Assembly (NCBI GenBank): GCA_018398585.1
Contig: JAGTTD010000008.1
Location: 32,030,156-32,094,155, forward strand
Length of the DNA: 64,000 nt
Direction: 5' to 3'
Source of the DNA: Simmondsia chinensis
Lineage: Eukaryota > Streptophyta > Magnoliopsida > Caryophyllales > Simmondsiaceae
The notes below the pieces were generated by a model. That model saw only the letters and a program-made list of their open reading frames with translations, did no database searches and had not been told where the DNA came from. The position numbers and the translations under genes are program-made. This document shows positions 11,546 to 63,449 of this stretch, piece after piece. Every line of letters begins with the position of its first letter. The first letter of the stretch is position 1.

Positions 11546-12949
11546 AACAAGGAAAAGTGTTGGGTGTGAGGCTCATTTTTTCATATGGGATATTCTATTA
11601 CATAACACTTAAATAGATGGGTTATTTTGGATAGGCTTTTTCTTAATGTGGGATGTGGGATGATGTGATGAAAAAAGTCAACTTAGGAAAGTCCCAAACC
11701 TCTTCTTTTAATGTTTTGAAGCATATTTATAACATTAATGAATGTTAGAAATAATTAATTAAATAATAAATTGTTTTAATCAGCTCATTTACATGTAAAA
11801 GGGTTATTTATATTTTATTATCCTAACGTTTTTGAAAATAATAAAAATGACTCTAATCCTTTTGAATTATAAAAAAAGCCGCTAAGTTTTGTCATATTAA
11901 TAAAAATGCCCCTAAGTTTTTGTTATATTAACAAAAAGACCTCTCTCCGGCCTAATGACATCATTTTTTGTCAACAGAATTGACGTGGCAACTATTTTTT
12001 AATTAATGCTATAGCAAAATGACAAAAATATCCTTTAATAACCCTATTTTTAAACAAATTAAGCAAAAATAGATAATGTTTACATAATATAATATCTCAA
12101 ATTTTGTGCTTATAAAATAATAATAAGGGTATTGAATGATATTTTTTCTTATAGTATTGCTTAAAAACAGTCACGATGTTAGTTCTTTCGACGGAAAATA
12201 ATGTCCTTATGCTGGAGATGTGCCTTTTTATTAATACGAAAAAAAAAAAACTTAAAAGTTTTTTTTTTCTAAATAAACAAATAAAAATATTTTTGTTATT
12301 TTTATTAATATCAAAATACTGAAATATAATAATTCTAAAACAAAAAAGGATACTTTTGCTTTCGGTATTTCCTCCCCCCCCCCCCCCCCCCCCCCCCCCA
12401 CGCTTTGTGGGCGAATCATCTTTTGTTGGCCAACCTTTTGACTTTAAATTGTTATGAGACCAACTTTATTACTTTATGGGGTCTTTTTTTTTTTTTTTTT
12501 TTTTACCCTTTTCTACACTTAACGTTGATTTTATGAATGAATTATATTCGGTCAATAATATAAATGACTTTATATTGGATTACTTAGACTTAAAATAATT
12601 ATATTATTAAAATTTTTATTCATAACTTAACTTTTATTTTACTATAAAATTAAATTAACATAATATAAAATATATAGAGACTAAATTGAAATAACAAAAA
12701 TTAAGAAAATTAAATTAATAGAGAAAACAAAATATTAGAATGCTTAATATAAAGTATCTCATAAATTAATGTAGAAGTTTTACACAGTTGGATATCTTAC
12801 TTGGGAAGTTGTGATCTTAAGCATATACTTCCTTTTAAGGTGTCGGAAACGTAGAGAAAGCCTCTATAAATAGACATGAGTGTTCTTTAAAAGATAAATA
12901 CCCATGCTTCTTTTCTACATCCACACAACAACACTCTATGATAGAGCAC

Positions 12950-22089: not shown

Positions 22090-24500
22090 ATTTGAAGAAA
22101 TAATGTTTTTAGAATTCAAGAGAGAAGAGAAAGTTAGAAAAACAAGAACTTGGAATGCATTATCAATATCTCATTTTGATCCACATATAAATCAATGTGA
22201 AATAGAAGATCGAAAAGTTATTCACTTGCAAAAAGTTGCAAACCAATTGCCGGATCCATTCATTGATAGAAAGAATAAGCAACATACCCAATGCCTAAGG
22301 GCTCTCGCCTAAGCAGGGTCTTTTTTTTTAGGGGGGGGGGGGGGGGGCGGGGCCGGCGGATGTATGCAGCCTTCTCTTTTCAGGGTATTACCCCTGAAGA
22401 GAGGCTGTTTTCGAATGCCCCCCAACCTGAATGTGAGAATTTCCTAGGAGGTCACCCATCCTGGTACTACTCTCGCCCAAGCAGGAGGTCATTGATAGAA
22501 AGAATGTTACTAACTAAATCACACGTCTCGGTTATAAATTCTCGTATTTGAATTGATATTCCAAAATATGAATCTTCCAAGGCATTAACAAATGCATCTA
22601 TTGTATACTAAAATTGTGGTAGACCTATCAATTGTAAAGATAAAACCTAAGAAAGAAAAGGGAGCTAAGTAAGCAAACTATCATCTGTTAAAGTTTTGAA
22701 GAGAAAACCCCTGAAAAGGTAATAATAAAAAAATAAGAAGAAAATATGAACAAATCTCATCAAGACTGGCAGATGACTAAAAATAGTGAAAATGCTAAAA
22801 CGATAGAGAATGAAGGGATCTTGATAAATTATGTTATTACTACGGTACGATGAAATCAAAATTAGATTGATCAAACATTTGCATAAACAATAGCTACTAA
22901 TTTGATTAAGGAAAGTGAAAACCTTGAACCCAAGTTTGTTGAAGAATGATAATAAAGAAGAAAATGGACTACACAGTTTAGGAAAAATTAGACTCACTTA
23001 CAGAACTTGTTGTTTTCAAACTTGTAGTCCAAACACCTAAAAATATGGAATGTATAGGCTGCAAGTGGGTGTTTGTGTAGAAAAGAAATAAAAAGAATGA
23101 GGTTGTTAGATATAAAGCATGATTTATATCTTATGGCTTCTCATTGAGGTCATAAATTAATTATGCGGAAACAAAGTCACATGTAACGAATGCAGATTTT
23201 TAATCAGGTTGATGGTCTCTAAGGAGCTTCATGTACATCTTATGGATGTGGTGACAACCTATTTACATGGATCACTTGATAATGACATTTGAAAATCCCT
23301 AATGACTTGGGAATCCATAAGTATATAGATCAAAACCCCGAGAATTATATCAAATTATGCAAAATTTTTGTATGGATTAAAATAATTGAGGCAATTGTGA
23401 TATAATCGTCTTAGTATATATCTTCTGAAAGAAGCATATGTAAACTACTCCACTCTTGTATCTTTGTTAAAAATCAAAATCTAAATTTGGTATCATTGTC
23501 GTATATGCTAATGACTTAAACATCATAGGAGCTTCTAAAGTGCTTGAAAATGCTGTTACATATCTAAAAATAGAATTTCAAATAAAGGGTCTTTTAAAGA
23601 CAAAATTTTGTCTCAATCTTCTAAATGAGCACCTTAGATGAAAATGTAATCCATTAATCCACTAGGAAAAATGCTTAAATTTTTTTAATATGCTTAAGGC
23701 GCGTCCATATATAATACCACAATGGTTGTTCGATCCCTTGATGTAAATAAAGACCCCTTTCATCATCAAGAAGACACAAAGAAAAAATTTTTGGCCTAGA
23801 AGTATTGTACCTTAGTGTAGTGCGCTAACGTATTTTGTCAACTACAGGAGACCAGATATAGCCTTTTTAGATAATTTATTAACAAGATGTAGTTCAAGAC
23901 CAACAGAAAGACATTGAAATGGGTGAAAACATATATTTCACAACCCTCATGGAACAACTAATATGTTGTTATTCTATTCAAATAGTCAAACCGGAGAATG
24001 TTAGTTTTTTGTTCCATCCTTATAAAGAAAGTTAACAAATGGGATATTTATTTACAATGGTAATACTGCTATATCTTGGCTATTTATAAAGCAGACAAAT
24101 GCAATTGCTTCTTCAAATCATGCTTCGATACTAGTGATTCATGAAGCAAGTAGAGAATGTGAATAGCTGAGATCATTGGTTCAACATGTTCAATAAGAAT
24201 GTAAATTTTTAGCGATCAGGGGAAGTCCAATAATATTAGATGAAAACAATTTCGTATTTTTGGCTCAAATCAAAAACAAATAAATAAAAGGTGACCAAGC
24301 ATATCCCACCCATGATTTTTTTTTTTCTTTTTTTCTTTTCAGGCACGAGCTTCATAATAAATATGAAATAGATGTTCATCAAATTCGCTCAAGTGAGAAC
24401 TTGGCACGTTACTTACTAAGGTATTACCCACAATAACGATTGAGAAAGTAATACACAAGATTGACATACTCCAACTTAGGACGTCCTTTGTTGACATTCC
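22090..24500 (+). pseudogene. Ty1/copia polyprotein remnant (RT and RNase H), copia element 3
   Basis: Plus strand. It opens with KVIHLQKVANQLPDPF at 22,215-22,262, a copia pre-RT motif, and is then interrupted by the SINE at 22,277-22,488. It resumes with RGRP-like text. RT text follows: CKWVFV near 23,065, a degenerate leucine-rich core to about 23,400, and VYANDLNIIG (from YVDDLNIIG; catalytic Asp pair damaged) near 23,505-23,530. RNase H-like text appears as YRRPDIAF near 23,850, HEASRECE near 24,140 and a degenerate end by 24,480. Stop codons occur every few dozen codons, so this is an old copy. Confidence 0.75.
22277..22488 (-). mobile_element. 5S-rRNA-headed SINE, 5'-truncated copy (copy B)
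   Basis: On the minus strand it starts inside a 5S rRNA-like sequence: CTTGGGCGAGAGTAGTACC, then GATGGGTGACCTCCTAGG. It continues through CAGCCTCTCTTCAGGGGTAA and ends GCGAGAGCCCTTAGGCATTGG followed by GTATGTTGC. The flanks carry a perfect 17-bp duplication, TCATTGATAGAAAGAAT, at 22,260-22,276 and 22,489-22,505. A G-run of about 17 (22,332-22,348 on the plus strand) has expanded inside it. It is homologous to the full-length copy at 55,737-55,994 over the whole body. Confidence 0.8.
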
Positions 24501-32133: not shown

Positions 32134-32190
32134 AACAACAACAACAACAACAACAGTCCCAGTGCCTTGCGGCTCCCGCATAAAGCAGGG
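32134..32190 (-). mobile_element. 57-bp RTE/SINE tail insertion
   Basis: On the plus strand, CAA repeats, then CAGTCCCAGTGCCTTGCGGC and CCCGCATAAAGCAGGG. It is flanked by a perfect 19-bp duplication, TATATAAAATAAGGTATAC, at 32,115-32,133 and 32,191-32,209. It corresponds to the last bases of the RTE LINE and of the 5S-headed SINE. Confidence 0.8.
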
Positions 32191-32503
32191 TATATAAAAT
32201 AAGGTATACTGTCGCTAATTAGCAAAAAAAAATATACTGTCAAAAATCATGTTTTACTTTAGCTTTTGTCAACAGAAGTGTATTGAATCTTGAAAAAAAA
32301 GAGTACCCGGTCAAGTTATAAAACTTTTAGACCTCAAGGCACCCCTTTAAAATATTAGGGTATCTCGATGATAAATGATCAAATCTCAGGGTATATCAAT
32401 GATTATTTCCCTAATTTATATACTTAATTAATATTATCAAAATATATGATGAAAACTAATAACTTACAGAAGATATATATAAATTTAATTATGTTATTTA
32501 ATG

Positions 32504-38862: not shown

Positions 38863-41800
38863 ATGGATACAAGTTGGATCACGCAACCAAGGATTAGTCA
38901 AGCTTATATTGATGGTGTCATTGAATTCATTAAGTTGGCTAAAGAAAACCTTATATAAGGAAAAACTCGATGTCCATGTAATAAATGCAAAGTAGCCAAA
39001 TGGTTCTCATTAGAAGATGTGGAATATTATATCCTTTTTAAGGGTTTTTGGCCAAAGTATAAGAAATGAATTTTTCATGAAAAAGAAGATATTGTTCAAC
39101 AATTGAGATGCAATAGTCAAACATCTACCAATAATAATGAGGGAAGGGCCATAGGTCGAGATGATATTGGGGATTACTACGAGAAAGTATCGGAGTTGAT
39201 ATTCCTCCCTCCACAAGTCAACCCCATTTGTCTGATGAACATGATTGGTCGGACCAAGTTCCTCTTTAACAACCCAACCAATCTCCTGAGGAGAAAGCCA
39301 AGTATAAGAAGATATTGGAAGCTTCTAATGAAGAACTATATCCAGGCTGTAGCGCATTCTCCAAATTGTCATTTCTTTTGCACTTGTTTCACTTGAAATG
39401 TATGCATAGTTGGTCTGCTGAGTCCTTCACGATGTTGCTAAGACTTCTTGTTGATGCATTTTCCCAAATTATGGTATTTCCATCATCTTATTGTGAAGCT
39501 CAGAAAATGATCAATGAGTTGGGTATTGGATATGAAAAGATTCATGCTTGTCCAAATAATTGTATGTTGTATTGGGGTGAAATGTCTGAAAAAGAGAGTT
39601 GTCATACATGCGGTACCTCAAGATGGAAGATAGTTAAGGGTAAGGAAGATGACCGTTGTAGTGATGAAACTATGTCAACCAAGAAAGGAGAGCCCGCTAA
39701 GGTTATGCGGTAATTTTCTTTGATTTCAAGGCTCAAAAGATTATACATGTCATCTAAAATAGCCGAAGATATGAGATGGCATGAGATAGACCGTTTGAAG
39801 GATGGGAAATTAAGGCATCCTGCAGATGGCTTAGCTTGGAGGGCATTTGATGCTCGGTATCCGGAGTTTTCTTCAGATCCTCGTAGTGTTAGGCTTGGTC
39901 TTGCTAGTGACGGCTTCAATCCGTACCGTCTTATGAATACTACTTATAGTAAATGGCCAGTGGTGTTGACCCTGTACAACTTGCCCCCTTGGCTATGTAT
40001 GAAGCAATCATCATTTATTCTTTCTTCGATTATTCCTGGGAAATCGTGCCCTGGACTTGACATTGATGTGTACCTACAACCATTGCTGCATGAGTTGAAA
40101 TTGTTATGGGAAGGTATTGATGCATATGATGCCTATAGTGGACAAAACTTTAGGATGCAAGGGGCTATAATGTGGACTATCAATGACTTTCCTGCATATG
40201 CTATGTTGTCTGGTTGGAGTACAAAGGGCTACACAGCTTGTCCTTATTGCACTGAACATACACATTCTTATAAGTTTGGGGGCAAGATTTGCTATAATGG
40301 ACACCGTAAATGGTTACCTAATAATCACCCTTTTCGATCTCAGAGTCAATTGTTTGATGGGACAATGGAGTGTGCTTGTGCTCCTACTCCGGCATCAGGG
40401 ACCGATATCTTGAAAGCACAAGAACAAGTTCGTTACAAGTACGGAAAAACCCAAAAGACTAGTAAGAAGAAAAGAGAAAGGCACCACATAGACAGTTCAA
40501 TAGAAAGAATGGACAATGAGGAAGTGCTTTGGAAGAAAAAAAGCATATTTTTTGACTTGCCATATTGGGAGTACAATCTCCTTCGACATAATCTAGATGT
40601 CATGCCCATAGAGAAAAATGTGTGTGATAATGTTCTAGGGACGCTATTACATATGGAGAGAAAGACTAGAGATGATGAAAAGGCAAGAAGGGCCCTTGAA
40701 GAAAGGAACATAAAGCCACATTTTTGGCTACAACCTCGTCATAATAGAGATCCGTACATGCCTCCATCTTCTTACTATATGTCTTCAAATGATAAAGAAC
40801 GGTTTCTAAGAGTTCTACAGAAACTTAGGGTCCCAGATGGATATGGATCTAACATCTCTAGATGTGTGAAGTTGAAACAAAGAAAACTCTTAAACCTTAA
40901 GAGTCATGACAACCATGTTCTTATGCAAGATATTCTTCCTGTAGCTTTACGAGCATCCAATGCCACACAAGTCATTGAGTTGCTTTCAGACTTGTCTTCC
41001 TTTTTCAAATACTTGTGTTCTACGACCCTCGACCCAAATATGCTCGATCTTCAACAATCGAACATTATTCTTACACTTTGTGAGATGGAGATGGAATTTC
41101 TACCTACATTTTTCACAGTCATGGTTCATCTACTAATTCATTTAGTAGAGGAGGCTAAGCTTGGTGGGCCTGTTCACTATAGATGGATGTATCCGATTGA
41201 AAGGTTAGCCGATAATGCTTCATTTACTTTTATCTGTCATATTTGGCATCCAGTAATTGATCTCACTTGTTATTTATATTGATGTAATAAAGGTATTTGT
41301 CCCATTTGAAAGCATACGTAAGTAACCAAGCGTGGCCAGAAGGGTCTATTGCTGAAGGCTACATCATGGAGGAGACTATTACATTTTATTCTAGATACTT
41401 AGAAGGTGCTACGACCATTTTTAATAGACCCAAAAGAAATGATGATAATGGTTCAAGTATGGGTAAATACTTGTTAAAGTCTGGGGGTTGTGCAATTGGA
41501 AAAGAGAAAATTGTTCGCCTTGATATGAGAAGTAAGAAACAAGCGCATCGTTATGTGCTACTCCAGCTAGATGAAATCAAGGAACTTCGTGAGTAAGTGT
41601 TAATAGAAGCAACTTTGTCAATATTAACTATTTTTGTTCAACCTGCTAATAATTTCCTTATTATAGTGAATTTTTAAGTGAAAAACGACGAGCATATTTC
41701 CATAGAGGTCGATCTAATGCAACATTAGAAAATCCGTGGATTGTTGAAGAGTTTTCTGAGTGGCTTCAAAACCAGGTTAGTATATTTTATTCGATGTTGA

Positions 41801-46099: not shown

Positions 46100-49000
46100 G
46101 TCTCTAAATAAAAGAAACAAGTGACGCGGATGACTTTTAGTGAAAATGTCTGCAATCTGCTGTGAAGAAGGAATGTGAAAAACTCAAACAAGGCCTATCT
46201 GAACACACTCTTGAACAAAGTGAATGTCAATTTCAATATGCTTAGTACGAACATGCTACACGGGGTTAGTAGACAAGTATGTAGCGGAAAGATTATCACA
46301 ATAAACCAATGTAGCTCGAGGAATGGAAATATCAAGTTCATGTAATAAAAAGCGAAGCCAACAACATTCTGAAACGGCATTGGCAACGGCGCGATACTCA
46401 GCTTCTGCACTAGAGCGAGAGACAGTGGGTTGACGTTTAGAAGACTAGGAGATAGTAATTCCACCTAGAAAAACACAAAAGCTAGACGTGGAGCGGCGAA
46501 TGTTGGGATAGCTTGCCCAATCAGCATCAAAATAAGCCACAAGCTGATCTAAAGAGGTAGGAAATATAGTCAAGCCATGATCCAAGGTACCCTTGATATA
46601 GCGAAGAATGCGTTTTATAGTGACCCAATGTGGAAGGTGAGGAGCGTGCATGAAAAGGCACACCTGTTGTACTGCATATGAAATATCAGGACGTGTAAAG
46701 GTAAGATATTTCAAGGAACCTACAACAGACGAGTACATAGTAGGATCAGACATAAGATTGCCATCGGTCAATGATAGTTTGGACTTGGAATCAGTAGGCG
46801 TGGCAACATGTTTGCATGAAAGCATATCAGTCCTATCAAGACATGTTTGCATGAAAGCATATCAGTCCTATCAAGAAGAACCTAAGTATACTTTGACTGA
46901 GACAAAAATAGACCTGTAGAGAGATGAGATACTGAAATCTCGAGAAAATAATTGAGACGTCCCAGATCTATCATATCAAATTCACGGCGAATAGAGTGGA
47001 GTAATGAATCAGAAGAAGTAGTGATAACAATATCGTCCACATACACCAATAAGATGGCCATATCAGACCCTCGATGTAAAACAAATAATGATGAATCAGA
47101 CTTACAGCTATGGAAGACAAGACGATGGAGAAATGAAGCAAAGCGAGTATGCCATGCACGAGGTGCTTGCTGAAGACCATATAGAGACTTGTTCAACTTG
47201 CAAACAAAATCAGGAAATTGAGAATCCACAAAACCAGGCTGTTGCTTCATGTAAACCTCTTCATGCAAAGTGCCATGCAGAAAGCATTTTTGACGTCAAG
47301 CTGATGAATGGACCACTTATGAGAAGTGGCGATAGTGAGTATAGTGTGAACTATAGCAGGATTGACAACAGGACTGAAATTTTCACCATAATCAATACCA
47401 TAACATTGTGTGAACCCCTAAGCTACCAATCGAGCTTTGTAGCTTCCAACCTGACTTGTTGGAATTTGCTTGACCCGATAAACCCATTTTGATCTGATGA
47501 CATTAGTATGATCAAGACAAGGTACCAATGTCCAAGTATTGTTGCATAAAAGAGCTTGATATTCATCAAGCATTGCAGCTTTCCAATTTTTGTCTTCAAG
47601 AGCCTGCTTGTAAGAGTATGGAATTTCGGGCAGAGCAATATGAGCAAGCATAGAGGGTTTAAAAAGGGGCTTCACTATACCGGATTTAGAATGAGTGATC
47701 ATAGGATGAACTAAGAGAATGGGAGCAGGTGGCGCCCCGGGGGTGGAGATGGCTCACGAGTAAGGACATCACTCATGGTGGCATCAAATGTCATCGGTGG
47801 GGAGTGTGATGGGGCGCCAACCGTGGCAGGCACACGGTTGACAGTAGCAGCGGGATCCGATTGAACGGCAAGTGGTGACGTCCCAACAAATGGAGATGAA
47901 GCAAGGGTTGATGAGCACACTTGTTGAAGACGATGCATTGTAACCTGTGAAATAGCCCCCAACCGAGCAAACGAAAAATCTGTTTCATCAAAGATGACAT
48001 GTCTAGAAATGATCACTTTGTTAGTAGACAGATCAAGACATTTATAGCCCTTATTGTTAAGCGGATATCCCAAGAAAACACACAAGCTGGATCAAGAAGC
48101 AAGTTTATGCGGTGCAGTGGCACTTAAATTTGGATAACAAGCACATCCAAAAACCCGAAGATGATCATGTGTAACCTTCTTTTTATAAAGGCGTTGAAAC
48201 GGGATCTTGTTCTTAATGGAAGTAGAGGACAAGAGATTAATAATTTGAGTAGCAACAAGCACCGCTTCAACCCAGTACTCTAGAGGCATACATGCCTGGA
48301 ATAGAAGAGATCTCGTCATATTTCCAACTATTCTATGCATATGCTCTGCTTTACCATTCTGTTGTGAGGTGTGAGGATATGAAACTCGACTTAGAATGCC
48401 TTGTCGTGCAAAGAGGCCATTGAAATTGCGATTAATGTATTCGGTTCCATTATCACACTGAAAGTGCTTAATCTCAACATCAAACTGATTTAAGATGAGA
48501 TTACAAAACTGAACAATAAACCAAACACTTCAAATTTGGCACGCATAGAGTAAATCCACGCATAGTGAGAATAATCATCCAAAAGGAACAAATAATACTT
48601 ATAACCACTGAAACTAAAAACAAGAGATGTCCATACATCCGAATGAACAATATCAAATGGCTGAGTAGTACTTGACTCTGTTTTTTGAAAGGGTAATCGA
48701 CTGTGTTTGCCCAATTGACAAGCCTGACAAAGACTGGACTCTGAGGTAGAACCTGAACAGGAAATGAATTTATGTTTAACTAATAAGAATAAGACTAGTT
48801 GCCCGGGATGACCAAGTCTAAAATGCTAGAGAGACTGTGTAGTTTTAGAAGCAACTAATGAAACATGTGTAGAGGATGACTTAGGAATGGAGAAAAGAGG
48901 CCTCGAGTTAGCATAACGAATTATGAGAGACATCGTTTTAGCATTTTTAATGGAAAAACCACCCGAGTCAAATTCTAAAAGGCAGCAATTATCTTTACAG

Positions 49001-49437
49001 AATTGGTAGATAGATATTAAATTGGTGGAAATACCAGGGACATGAAGGACATTATGCAAGTTGAAACGACCAACAGGTGTATTAAAAAAATTAGATCCGA
49101 CCCCAGCAATTGATAACGAGGCACCATTGCCAACCAATATTTTATCGCAACCATTATAAGGACTAACAGATGTTAGCAAATTAGGGTTATTAGTCATATG
49201 AGATGAGGCACCACTATCCATTATATAGGGAAAATCAATCATAGGAGTTGAATAAGTAGTGAGAGATTGAAAATTGTTTTGGGGAAACGCAAACCCTGAA
49301 TAGAAATTAGAACCAGTGGCATAAGTATTATTTACAGGATAAAAGTGTGGTGTAGACAACATATTCTCACCATAAATAGGAGCACCAAAGAAAGGTAGGC
49401 CAGGTTGTAAAGCAGAACCCATCATCGAAGCGAGCAT
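46100..49437 (-). pseudogene. copia polyprotein: protease, integrase, RT, RNase H (frames broken)
   Basis: Reading down the minus strand: protease IMDSGASSHMT near 49,205; GAG_pre-like LHNVLHVPGISTNLIS near 49,020-49,065. Integrase core follows: FDIVHSDVWTS near 48,630, YYLFLLDDYSHYAW near 48,570, then TRSLLFQACMPLEYWVEA and KIPFQRLYKKK-type text to 48,180. The RT runs from W.AAMLDEYQAL near 47,570 through [29 protein letters not shown] (about 47,170) and catalytic YVDDIVIT (47,020-47,045). RNase H follows: FTRPDISYAV (46,690), YFDADWA (46,520), RSSAEAEYRA (46,400). At least six stops or shifts separate these pieces. The catalytic YVDD is intact but the protein is not. The order PR-IN-RT-RH defines Ty1/copia. 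Confidence 0.9.
46805..46874. repeat. 35-bp tandem duplication inside the copia RT
   Basis: The segment beginning ACATGTTTGCATGAAAGC and ending CAGTCCTATCAAG occurs twice in direct succession without mismatch. The second unit breaks the polyprotein frame. It arose after insertion or during its last replication. Confidence 0.8.
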
Positions 49438-49707
49438 AATCGACAGCGACCAATATATTCGACAGCTGACCAGAGAGAATCACAACCTTGTTGTGAAGAT
49501 GTGGGGGCTCGGGTTTTGTTTTGTGGTGGCTAGGGTTTGCGTCGGTGAGAGAAAGCAGCGCCGACAGGGGGCGTAGCAGCGAGGGGTGGTGGCGGCGCTT
49601 GGGTGGTCGGTGCTAGGGTTTGCGTCGATTGGGTTTTTTTTTGCTGTTGGGTGGCTAGGGTTTGCCTTGGGAAAAGAGAGTGTTTTCAGCTTTAGGCTGT
49701 AATACCA

Positions 49708-49926: not shown

Positions 49927-50455
49927 AAAAGGGATGGCAACAGAGCGCGTAAAACACATTATCTGCAGGCACCCACTCAACGGCGCAGGTATGGGTATAA
50001 ATGAGGCAGGTAGCGGGTACGGGTTGGGTGTACCTGCCCCGGACTCATCACAAGTATGGGGCGGGTACGGGTATAGTGTTGTAGCCGCCCTGCCCCATTC
50101 CATACTCGCCTCACCCCGCTTTATACCCACCATATCCTACATTCTTAAATTTAATTACCAAAATTATTTATCAATTATGTTATAAATACGGGCATATACG
50201 GATAATTGTTTTGTACCCACATTAAGGCTGATACGAGGCCGGTAATGGATACCCATGGGTAATGGGCGGGTATGGATATGGGTTTATACCTGACGGGGTG
50301 GGTATGGGTATGGATTTCATATCTGTGGCGGCTAATAGGGCGGGCATGGATATAAAATTTGAATGACGGTATGGGTAAGGAGGAGGCACCCCACCCCCCC
50401 CCCCCCCCCCCCCCCCCCCAAAAATAACCACCCCGCCCCTCTACCATCCCTAGTA
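49927..50455. repeat. GGGTATGG-rich dispersed repeat with a long C-run
   Basis: Left end AGGGATGGCAACAGAGCG; the complement of the right end is ACTAGGGATGGTAGAGGGG. The interior is made of GGGTATGGGTATGGA and GGGCGGGTA words in both orientations. A run of about 24 C at 50,395-50,419 lies near the right end. Non-coding, though the repeats produce glycine/proline-rich spurious frames. Confidence 0.55.
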
Positions 50456-52443: not shown

Positions 52444-52487
<44 letters not shown>

Positions 52488-52545
52488 CTCTACCTAACCC
52501 TAACCCTAACCCTAACCCAGTGAACCCTAACCCTAACCCTAACTG
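52442..52545. repeat. C-run followed by telomere-like CCCTAA repeats in the LINE leader
   Basis: About 40 consecutive C (52,445-52,484). TACCTAACCCTAACCCTAAC follows, continuing with one interruption (CAGTGA) to about 52,543. The unit is the 6-mer CCCTAA, not the usual plant 7-mer CCCTAAA. Confidence 0.85.
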
Positions 52546-55500
52546 AGGCCACCACCACCATCGGACAGGACCACCACCAAGCCAGCCACCACTGAATTGG
52601 ACCACCACCACCCTCACCCTCTCACTGTGAAACCCTAGAAAGCCCCAAAACTAACCCAAAACCTGACCCTAACCCATTAACCAGCCAACCCTAGCCTTAG
52701 CAACCCCAAACTTGACACTCACCCAACACCGCAACCACAACAGCCTCGCTCCATGGCTCGTAGTCGGCCGATCCCAGGTAAGCAATAACCGGCCAGTCCA
52801 ACGTTAGATCTCTCATTTGCGTGAATTTGTGCTAAGTTTGTTGGGTATTATTTGATTTCTCCTATCTACTTTTGAACTTCATCATTTTGAGTGTTGTTGC
52901 TATTCTGTGTCAACTATGTGCTGCTTACCTGTGATTGTTGACAGTTAGTTGATGAACTCTTCTAGTTATGGAGCTCAAAACCTGAGGCCATCTTCAAAGG
53001 GTTTGGGGTGGGGGAGGGTGAGTCAACTCGTTAAGGCAAGCCTGCAATTTGGGATGCTAAATGTCAACATGTTAACAAAGAAGAGTTTTGAGGTGGCCCA
53101 AATGATGATAAAGAGAGAGATTAGCATCCTTTTCCTTCAAGAGAGTAAATAGGTGGGCACGAAAGCTAGAGAAGTGCTAGGATATAGATTGTGGTATGTG
53201 AGCAAATCTAGAGGGAGGAATGAGGTGGGTATTTTCATGGATAGCGACCTTAAAGACAAAGTAATGGGAGTCATTAGGATTACCGATAGGACTACTGCCA
53301 TCAAGATGGTATTGGATGGGGAGATAATGAATGTTATAAGTGCCTATGTACCACATATTGGATTAACAGAGTAGGACAAAGCTAGATTTTTGGCGGACTT
53401 ACACTTAATGATGCAAGGCATACCCCAGAGCAAACAAGTAATGATTTGGGGTGATTTCGATGGACATGTGGGAGCAACCTGAGATGGCTATGCATCCTAC
53501 CATGGAGGCCTTGGTTTTGTAACCAGAAATGCTGAGGGTAAAGCTCTCTTAGATGTTGCCGTCACTTATGAGTTAATGGTTGCCAACACTTTCTTCAGAA
53601 AGCGTGATGAGCACATCATCACATATCAAAGCAGTGGAGCAAAGACTCAGATTGACTACATATTACTAAGAAAGAGGGCTCAAAAAGACTACAAGAATTA
53701 CAAGGTTATTCTTGGGAAAGACCTATCTACACAGCATAGATTATTGTGTGCTGATGTTAAGGCCAAGAGATGGGGGAACAGAACTAGGAAACCAGCCTAA
53801 TCATGCACTCATTGGAGGGATTTAAAGGGGGGCAAGTATCAAACCTTAAAGGAAAGAGTAGAATCTGAGCTCAGCTGGGATTTGGTGGGGAATATAAACC
53901 ACATTTAGAACCAACTGGCCCAGAAGATCAGAGGTTTGGCATGTGAGGTCCTATATGTGTCAAAGGGTGGGGCACCGAACCACATAGAGTCTTGGTGGTG
54001 GTGCAAGGAGGTCCAAAAGAAGATTAAGGCCCAGCGTTACTATTTCAAGGAGTGGGATTGAAGTGGAGATGATGACAAGAAACAATAGTACAGAAAGGCC
54101 AAGAACGAAGCAAAGATAGCAGTTAGAGAAGCACGGTCCAAAACATACGAGGATTTTTACAAAAGGCTAGACACGGAGAAGGGAGCTAGGGACCTATATA
54201 AAATCGCAAGAGTGAGAGAGAGGAGGACTAGGGACCTGATTCAAGTAAAGTACATAAAGGGACGAAGGATAGGTGCTTGTGGATGAGGAACAAATTAAAG
54301 CTAGGTAGAAAGCCAACTTCCAAGATCTGTTCAACGAATAAGGGGATAGAGATATATCCCTAGAAGAGCTATAAACATTTGAGGAGCATCAGAACCATTG
54401 CTACTGTAGGCCGATTAGATCGGAGGAAGTCAAGGAAGCCTTGAAAAAGATGCGCATGGGTAAAGCAACTGGTCTATATGGAATACCCATTGAGGCTTGG
54501 AAATGCTTCAGAGAGAAGGGCATCAGCTGGTTAACCAAACTATTCAACCAAATTCTTCAAGGTAAGAAGATGCTTGACGAGTAAAGGAAGAGCACAATAA
54601 TTCCGATCTACTAGAATAAAGGCGACATCCGGAGCTGTGTCAACTGTAGGGGAATCAAAATAATGAGCCACACTTTGAAGCTATGGGAGCGGGTCATAGA
54701 AAGAAGGCTACAGAAACAAATAGGGGTGTCTGAGATGCAATTTAAATTTTATGCCTGGTAGATCAAAGAAAGAAGCCATCCATCTTTTAAGGAGAACGAT
54801 AGAGTACTATAGAGATAGACAAAAGGACATGCATATGGTTCCATTGATTTGGAGAAGGCCTATGATAGAGAGCTAAGAGAGGTCTTATAGAGGGTTTTGG
54901 TGAAGAAAGGCATTCCTCAGTACTATAACTGAGCCATTAAAGACATGTACGAGGATGCACTAACCAATGTGCATATAGCGGAAGGGGAGACAGATGCTTT
55001 CCCCATTATAGTTGGGGTTCATTAAGGATCGGCCTTAAGCCCCGTTTTGTTCATTCTGGTTATAGACGAGCTCACTAGGCATATCCTAGGAGGTGTGCCT
55101 TAGTACATGCTTTTCGTGGATTATATAATTCTGGTGAGGAAGTCCCAAGAAGAGGTGAATGAGAAGCTGGGACTGTGGAGAACGGCCTTGGAATCTAAAG
55201 GCTTACGACTCAACTAGGTCAAGTATAGAATACATCAAGATTGGATCAGAGTGCATACCAAGAAAAAATTGTTTTAAATATCTAGGTTCCATAGTGCAGC
55301 AAGATGGGGAATTTAACGAGTATGTCAACAACCGGATTAAAGTAGGCTGGCATAAATGGAGGTTGGCCTCTACAATACTATACGATAGAAAGTTCCCGCT
55401 GACGTTAAAGTGAAAATACTACAAGCCGGTAGTGAGACCGGCTATGTCATACAGTACTGAGTGCTGGCCACTCAAAACGGCATCACACTCAGAAGTTGAA

Positions 55501-55736
55501 GGTGGCGGAGATAAAGATGTTGTAGTGGTTGTGTGGACACACAAGGAAGAATACGATTAGAAATGATGTTATAAGAAGCAAATTGGGTGTGGCCCCAATC
55601 AAGGATAAGTTGAGGAAGCAATATCTGCGATGGTTTGGATATGTTAGGAGGAGACCAACCACTGCCCTTGTCAGGAGAAGTGAACAACTTCATACCACAG
55701 ACGGAAGGAGAGGGAGAGGCAGGCCAAAGAAGAGTT

Positions 55737-55994
55737 GCAACAATAACACCAACAGACCTAGTGCCTCAAGGGCTTCCGCATAAGCGAGGTCTGGGAGGAG
55801 TGGATGTACACAGCCTTACCCCTTCAGGGTGTAACCTTGTCGAGAGGTTGTTTCCGAGGACCCCCAACTCTATAGGGTTGGAAACACGGGGAATTCCCAG
55901 GAGGTCACCCATCGTGGTACTATTCTCGCCCAACCACGCTTAATTTCGGAGTTCTAATGGGATCCAGTGTCTTAGTGCCTGGTAAATGAACCCT
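55737..55994 (-). mobile_element. 5S-rRNA-headed SINE, full-length copy (copy A)
   Basis: Minus strand, 258 bp, inserted in the RTE LINE with a perfect 16-bp duplication AGGCCAAAGAAGAGTT (55,721-55,736; 55,995-56,010). The first 121 bases (55,994 to 55,874) follow plant 5S rRNA from end to end: GGATCCCATTAGAACTCCG, AATTAAGCGTGGTTGGGCG, GATGGGTGACCTCCTGGG. They keep the box A-IE-box C region that acts as an internal RNA polymerase III promoter. The remaining 137 bases end GGGGTAAGGCTGTGTACATC, CGCTTATGCGG, GAGGCACTAGGTCTG and a TTG-type tail. This is the same 3' end as the RTE LINE it sits in. It has no protein-coding capacity. Confidence 0.88.
55874..55994 (-). ncRNA. 5S rRNA-like sequence forming the SINE head (not a functional 5S gene)
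   Basis: 121 bases resembling 5S rRNA, with substitutions at the first stem (AGGGTTCATTTACCAGGCAC instead of a GGGTGCGATCATACC-type start). It is single-copy, lies inside a transposon insertion and lacks a T-run terminator. It is therefore a derived promoter module rather than an array member. Confidence 0.75.
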
Positions 55995-56779
55995 AGGCCA
56001 AAGAAGAGTTAAATGGAGACAGTTCGACAGTAGCTCACCCACCTCAACTTAAATAAAGAGATGGCACTAGATGAAGCGGAATGGAGGGTTAGCATAAGCG
56101 TAGCTGATATTGCGGTTTACGAAGACAGGAGCGCGTCTAAGGTCGTACTAGCGCCCATAGATTTATATGTATGCCTGTTTGATTTTATTTTCTATTAATG
56201 TGTATTGATTGCTTGTTGTTCTATCGCTGTGTTGCTTTACTGCTATCGTTGCTTCATGCTTTATGTTTTATGCTCTCTATCTATGTGCTACTGTTTTCAC
56301 ACTTTCCAGGTTGGAGGTCCTCAAACACAACCTCTTTTTAGGGTAGCACTTTAAAGGGATAAGGCAGCTCACATCCCACCCCTCCCAGACCCTGCATATG
56401 CAGGAGCCTTTGAGGCATTGGGTTTGTTATTGTTGTTAATGTTAACGGTGTCATATTAAGGTATTGAAAATTTTTAAAAGGTTTGTGACATTAAAAAATA
56501 AGAAAATATAGATAGTTTTTTGAAATCGTACCTAAAATTTATGTAATTTTTTTTGGACAAATAAAATTTAAAAATAAGTCAAATTTTTTATAGGTTGCAA
56601 TTTTACTAAATAGGTACAAAACCCCAAAAGCAGACAACGATATATATATATGGACAGCTTTTCAACAAGAGGAGGATTATGGCTCTCTTGTCATTTTCAA
56701 AGGAGATACAGTAGGTGCACCTTCCTTAACTCCCCCCCATGTGCATTTAATTTACATCCTCGAGGTCGTAACTCAGTAC

Positions 56780-57277: not shown

Positions 57278-57804
57278 CTGGGCTTGTCAGGAAATACGAG
57301 CAACTCTATACTACGGACGGAGGAGAGGAAGAGGCAGACCAAAGAAGAGCTGGATAAAGACGATTCAACACGACCTCACCCACCTAAACCTAAATGAGGA
57401 GGTGACTCTAGATAGAGCTGAGTTGAGAGCTAACATAGGTATCGCTAATATGGAGGTTTAGAATAGAGGAGCATAGCTAGCCTAGTCCTAGCACCCCTAG
57501 GCTTATTTGCGCCTTACTATTTGTTGCTTTGTGCTGTATTGCTTTTTACTTGATGCTTTAGTACTTATTGCCTATTGCTACTTTTGTTACTTTATACTTT
57601 CTACTTTATGCTCTCTCTGTGCTTTTGCTATTGCGCTAGCATGTTGTTATGCTTTTTATGCTTTTAGGTTGGGAGTCCTAGAACGCAGCCTCCCTTTGGG
57701 GTAACACCTTCATATCCCCCCCCCCCCCCCCCCCCCCGGATCCTACTTTAGCAGGAGCCTTTGAAGTACTAGGTCTGTTGTTGCTATTGTTGTTATTGTA
57801 CACT
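57278..57804 (+). mobile_element. 5'-truncated RTE LINE copy
   Basis: 527 bp flanked by a perfect 12-bp duplication, ATATGATTCTAT (57,266-57,277; 57,805-57,816). It encodes only the C-terminal end (RGRGRPKKSWIKTIQ-like, then HDLTHLNLNEEVTLDRAEL, 57,320-57,430). It ends GCAGGAGCCTTTGAAGTACTAGG with TTG-type repeats. A C-run of about 21 lies at 57,717-57,737. Same family as 52,243-56,444. Confidence 0.85.
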
Positions 57805-63343: not shown

Positions 63344-63449
63344 CCCATTAGGGTAACACCCTGAAGAGGTAAGGCTGTGTACATCCCATCCCTCCCAAAC
63401 CTTGCTTATGTGGGAGCTCTTGAAGCACTGTGTTTGTTGTTGTTGTTGT
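63344..63449 (+). mobile_element. 106-bp RTE/SINE tail insertion
   Basis: GGGTAACACCCTGAAGAGGT, AAGGCTGTGTACATCCC, GTGGGAGCTCTTGAAGCAC and TTG repeats. Flanked by a 16-bp duplication, ATATTGGAAAGTAAAT at 63,328-63,343 and ATATTGAAAAGTAAAT at 63,450-63,465 (one mismatch). It extends far enough into the body (CACCCTGAAG) to match the 5S-headed SINE, so it may be a truncated SINE rather than a LINE end. Confidence 0.75.

Follow-up and report, generated by a model that had tools for sequence, protein, structure and literature searches.

How a plant genome came to hold a short element that begins as 5S rRNA and ends as a LINE, and whether it does so at one locus or throughout, is the question raised by the stretch of Simmondsia chinensis DNA analysed here (64,000 nucleotides, referred to as the window). 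An older, decayed LINE in this window is interrupted by a 258-bp unit with both of these parts. The answer reached below is that the unit belongs to a dispersed family with three subfamilies, designated A-, B-, and C-type.

The interrupted LINE and its SINE

The features of the window are collected in Table 1. The original prediction of a 258-bp unit bounded by a perfect 16-bp target duplication (TSD) proved exact in its coordinates, the element lying on the minus strand. Its first 121 bases had been likened to plant 5S rRNA, and this is borne out by Rfam model RF00001, which matches at 55995–55877 (minus strand) over model positions 1–120 with 64.1 bits, against a gathering score of 38. Over 117 bases aligned with an A. 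thaliana 5S reference (6 gap positions), the head is identical at 99; the alignment score is 65, the best of 1000 shuffles being −9, and the nhmmer value in Table 1 was obtained with the same reference. A tRNA-derived head, as in the plant SINEs TS, Au, and the Angio-SINEs, is not what this element carries—its head is 5S by Rfam—and ARAGORN found no tRNA in the 64-kb window. The tail may resemble the Angio-domain of the Angio-SINEs.

Table 1. Coordinates of the SINE copies, their parts, and the host LINE within the window
Feature	Position	Strand	Basis
Complete A-type 5S-headed SINE	55737..55994	minus	5S head, LINE tail, TSD, empty sites, genome matches
5S rRNA-derived head (element bases 1–121)	55874..55994	minus	Rfam RF00001 64.1 bits; nhmmer E 4.6e-21
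Internal control region (5S bases 50–97)	55898..55945	minus	alignment to host 5S; motif as described in PMC10853983
LINE-derived 3′ tail ending in TTG-like repeat	55737..55868	minus	LINE 3′ end match
Left TSD copy of 258-bp SINE	55721..55736		AGGCCAAAGAAGAGTT, 16 bp
Right TSD copy of 258-bp SINE	55995..56010		AGGCCAAAGAAGAGTT, 16 bp
Decayed RTE-like LINE hosting the SINE	52949..56437 (limits approximate, 3′ end about 56437)	plus	ORF pieces, 3′ end, related copies
Second SINE copy, B-type tail, 5′-truncated at about 5S base 57	22277..22488	minus	head E 1e-7
Left TSD of second SINE copy	22260..22276		17 bp
Right TSD of second SINE copy	22489..22505		17 bp

The tail had been assigned to the 3′ end of an RTE LINE. 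The match itself stands (74% over 128 nt to the surrounding LINE); the name RTE for the clade of this LINE is less firm, since no Pfam reverse transcriptase or endonuclease family matched among its nine short, decayed ORF pieces. A COX6C Pfam match on one LINE piece was taken as chance. Thirteen other LINE copies (L063–L070, L004, L019, L088, and two further LINEs of the window) cross the SINE insertion site uninterrupted, with the flanks joined by one copy of the duplication, and therefore the 258-bp unit was inserted as a whole. L077 spans the site too but falls narrowly under the span criterion, and only one side is matched in L062 and L083. Within the head, the C box reads ACGATGGGTG instead of the canonical motif AGGATGGGTG (as given in PMC10853983), and because of this mutation the window copy may be inactive.

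The head of the second, truncated copy is found at the E value of Table 1 when searched with the head of the first copy, and at 1.8e-9 when searched with Arabidopsis 5S. Two very short tail-only LINE/SINE insertions lie at 32143–32193 (minus strand) and about 63345–63449 (plus strand), both flanked by a target duplication of their own, 16–18 bp long (with one mismatch at the 63-kb copy); a supposed 5S remnant (CCCATTAG) in the latter was dropped, as it aligns as LINE tail. Runs of 20–45 C occur at 12374–12399, 50389–50419, 52444–52488, and about 57716–57737, and also within 22277–22488. The runs at 57716 and inside the second SINE copy coincide with the LINE/SINE tail's CCCCTCCC stretch, which is similarly expanded in several C-type copies; because of these coincident expansions, this tail position seems prone to growing C runs. 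Elsewhere in the window, the long open frame at 39714–41282 (plus strand) presumably resembles the transposase of a DNA transposon, and that at 46445–49479 (minus strand) the remnant of a Copia polyprotein.

A dispersed family with a single junction

The host genome (831,394,711 bases, 35 contigs) was searched with each of the three types, those of B- and C-type having been traced from further heads in the flanks of fetched A-type loci. With the 260-base A-type query, all 40 scored candidates matched at 88%–100% identity over at least 245 bases, from 8,061 first-look candidates; the C-type search gave 40 of 40 at 84%–100% (6,969 first-look candidates) and the B-type search 40 of 40 at 95%–100% identity to the query (3,305). 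The best match in each search is the query itself; candidates may be common to more than one search, and their numbers are not copy numbers. All three types are dispersed over many contigs. The 5S head is hence not confined to the window: every scored A-type match is headed, and the Rfam cut-off was passed at the element by all 20 loci given (L002–L021 of L001–L030). The expectation of many near-full-length copies with 5S heads is likewise borne out by the scored matches. Besides the window SINE, four headed copies (E < 1e-3) were present in 147,933 bases of window and flanks (L001 and L024 left out), a density which extrapolates to about 22,000 copies, with a Poisson 95% range of about 6,000–57,000 and with the flanks being a non-random sample.

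On average, copies are 94.6% identical to the consensus of their subfamily in A-type, 98.5% in B-type, and 92.0% in C-type, the true means being lower because the measured loci were best matches to a query; B-type looks the youngest. The consensus sequences are 239–254 nt long and non-coding. The SINE junction had no match in viral and prokaryote contigs, as expected of a plant element.

This junction, in which the 5S 3′ end is followed by AGGTTGGG, is common to the three subfamilies, and C-type retains the exact 5S end CACCCC. Compared with a consensus of ten LINE 3′ ends, the A-type consensus (30 copies) agrees at 113 of 128 positions from the junction onwards and at 14 of 31 before it, so that the LINE match of the A-type tail ends at the 5S/LINE junction; from the junction on, the B-type tail agrees at 101 of 128 positions and the C-type tail at 106 of 129. 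The 3′ termini differ: the TTG tails foreseen by the original prediction are present in A-type, which ends in (TTG)n, and B- and C-type end in a short T run. Downstream of L020, a LINE/SINE-type tail (108/131 to the LINE consensus) is preceded by unrelated sequence, and this copy could represent a further SINE family whose head is of another kind.

A single junction weighs against the reading that the copies are recurrent one-step chimeras, each formed independently when a LINE reverse transcriptase jumped from LINE RNA to 5S rRNA, with no propagating family. Such chimeras between a LINE and small RNAs are reported for mammalian L1 (PMC13174262), and 5S rRNA is abundant. However, the copies share, in addition to the junction, subfamily-specific changes outside both 5S and LINE; their heads share changes that are not in the host 5S genes; and B-type copies, from head through junction to tail, are 97.4%–99.1% identical to their consensus. 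The shared junction already contradicts recurrent chimerism, which is very improbable for the family and would apply to the founding event only.

Clear TSDs were found at 33 of 48 loci (A-type 21/29, B-type 6/9, C-type 6/10) and at none of 288 displaced control positions. A TSD was counted when its score was at least 11, and L024 (a duplicate of L014) and L081 (the query copy) were dropped; with L024 kept, A-type TSDs number 21 of 30 (0 of 240 controls), and with no limit on the score 23 of 30 (12 of 240 controls). The duplications are 11–21 bp long and differ between loci, as had been anticipated. At the other 15 loci no clear TSD was found, L005, L007, and L030 being among them though good matches. 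An all-against-all comparison of the A-type loci (30 loci, 300-bp flanks) shows the flanks to be unrelated, except for L014 and L024, which are one duplicated region, and for 72 bp in which L005 and L011 match.

These flanks bear on a further possibility, namely that the copies are remnants of Cassandra, an LTR element described as carrying 5S within plant LTRs (PMC10886601, PMC10853983). The surroundings of the 30 A-type loci contained no LTRs, in keeping with the original description of a unit free of LTRs, and in the comparisons made no fetched locus had a head running into LTR sequence. Since the flanks of these 30 loci are, with the two exceptions named, unrelated and without LTRs, the copies are not Cassandra derivatives; moreover, their heads span the whole 5S length (to its exact end in C-type), they have a LINE tail, and their TSDs reach the lengths given above. 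This derivation, too, is very improbable. A last reading—dispersed 5S pseudogenes that adjoin LINE tails by chance, in a genome that has 5S arrays and many LINE tails—is already contradicted by the shared head–tail unit, present as one piece in 40 of 40 scored matches and bounded by TSDs at the loci counted above, and is extremely improbable.

The 5S head and the probable route of mobilisation

The host 5S genes lie on contig C8, 47 of 51,838 candidates having been scored; of 30 fetched, 20 are identical and the other ten share a second sequence. Aligned with the main host gene over 117 bases plus 5 gap positions, the A-type head is identical at 109. Agreement is uneven along the head. Bases 30–97 match the host at 65 (A-type), 65 (B-type), and 66 (C-type) of 68 positions, and bases 50–97 at 45, 45, and 46 of 48. 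Bases 1–29 have drifted (17, 13, and 17 of 29), and bases 98–119 match at 18, 12, and 21 of 22, the B-type head having lost part of this region. The conserved part therefore covers the internal promoter and the bases immediately before it. The internal promoter boxes (A, IE, and C) are preserved in the consensus sequences, within what we take to be their exact limits in the 5S heads. At the C box, the canonical AGGATGGGTG is kept by the A- and B-type consensus, and AAGATGGGTG is found in the 30 sampled host genes and in the C-type consensus.

Base 39 is T in all three consensus sequences and in the host, where the Arabidopsis sequence has C, and all three consensus sequences keep CTCC where the host genes have CTCT. 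To judge from these bases, the SINE heads probably come from the 5S of this lineage and would be older than some of the changes seen in today's arrays. The SINE also records 5S evolution, because bases lost from the host's sampled 5S genes persist in it. In the 5S intergenic spacers (L031–L060), 17 bases repeat the C-box region (GGGTGACCTCCTGGGAA) in the older CTCC form lost from the genes. A 5S-like RNA fold was considered as a selected feature and set aside as unsupported, there being no sign of selection on it (z −0.65; two-sided change in 4 of 57 predicted pairs).

The insertion signature reported for plant RTE LINEs and their SINEs consists of a duplication beginning with TA and, some ten bases ahead of it, a run of T (PMC13295347). 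Positions −12 to −10 before the TSD hold T at 59 of 99 positions, against a background of 32%; this interval was picked after the A set had been viewed, and the B and C sets alone give 22 T of 36 positions. The TSD begins with T in 22 of 33 cases and with TA in 12 of 33. The Tn-TA signature of RTE-mobilised plant SINEs is hence present, and together with the shared 3′ end it points to mobilisation by an RTE-like LINE. The TTG tail also fits RTE, as described in PMC3747384, and the partner LINE may belong to that clade.

The 5S head, LINE tail, common junction, dispersion, TSDs, and empty sites of the family have all been observed, and the features of class SINE3 are found together: a 5S head with promoter boxes, a short, non-coding, and dispersed unit without LTRs, TSDs of LINE type, and a 3′ tail shared with a LINE. 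Very probably, then, these copies form a non-autonomous retroposon family of 5S-derived SINEs (class SINE3), which arose from fusion of 5S with an RTE-like LINE and is presumably mobilised via LINE enzymes. The family would have a single origin, most likely in one fusion between a complete 5S rRNA sequence and the last ~130 nt of such a LINE. Transcription by RNA polymerase III would be driven by the internal 5S promoter of the head. The LINE enzyme—probably of RTE type—would recognise the shared 3′ tail and cut the target some 10 nt downstream of a run of T, and the RNA would be reverse-transcribed in place, leaving a duplication of about 11–21 bp.

Relation to known 5S-bearing elements

No report of a plant 5S-headed SINE was found among the papers listed in the literature searched, Repbase and most subscription papers lying outside that search. 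A 2022 review derives plant SINEs from tRNAs (PMC9033089), and a 2024 paper on Cassandra mentions animals for SINEs with such promoters (PMC10853983). What is present here is an abundant 5S-headed SINE family with a young-looking subfamily in a plant, of a kind known from animals and fungi. A high-copy family of this kind, with a young subfamily, would extend the SINE3 class to plants. It also offers a possible plant source for the 5S of Cassandra: the landing of a SINE in an LTR has already been speculated upon as the origin of Cassandra (PMC10886601), and the family makes this speculation testable. The counter-proposal is that an LTR element acquired 5S beside an array and so became Cassandra (PMC10853983). 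That the present family survives from an old plant 5S-SINE lineage, of which one member landed in an LTR and gave Cassandra, is unlikely; if true, two classes of plant 5S-driven parasites would share an origin.

Among known elements, Ped-1 of the springhare likewise joins a 5S rRNA head to a tail from a LINE, BovB, of the RTE clade; its host is a mammal, and the likeness, drawn from the published description alone, is one of design (PMC3747384). With SINE3 elements of animals and fungi (zebrafish SINE3, HaSE3, PxSE4/PxSE5, and AfuSINE3, the fungal cases being described in PMC5063351), the family shares a short, non-coding form and a Pol III type 1 promoter from 5S rRNA, here predicted, but differs from them in host and, where the LINE is named, in tail (PMC8010984, PMC5063351). 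The 5S likeness of their heads is about 63% in PxSE4/5 and 50%–65% in AfuSINE3 (PMC8010984, PMC5063351), compared with the A-type figure given above. TS of tobacco is a plant SINE with an RTE tail that also ends in TTG repeats; unlike the present family, it has a tRNA head (PMC3747384). Cassandra, finally, is a plant mobile element with a 5S promoter, but it is an LTR retrotransposon (a TRIM) with its 5S inside the LTRs (PMC10853983, PMC10886601), whereas the SINE described here is without LTRs and has a LINE tail and long TSDs.
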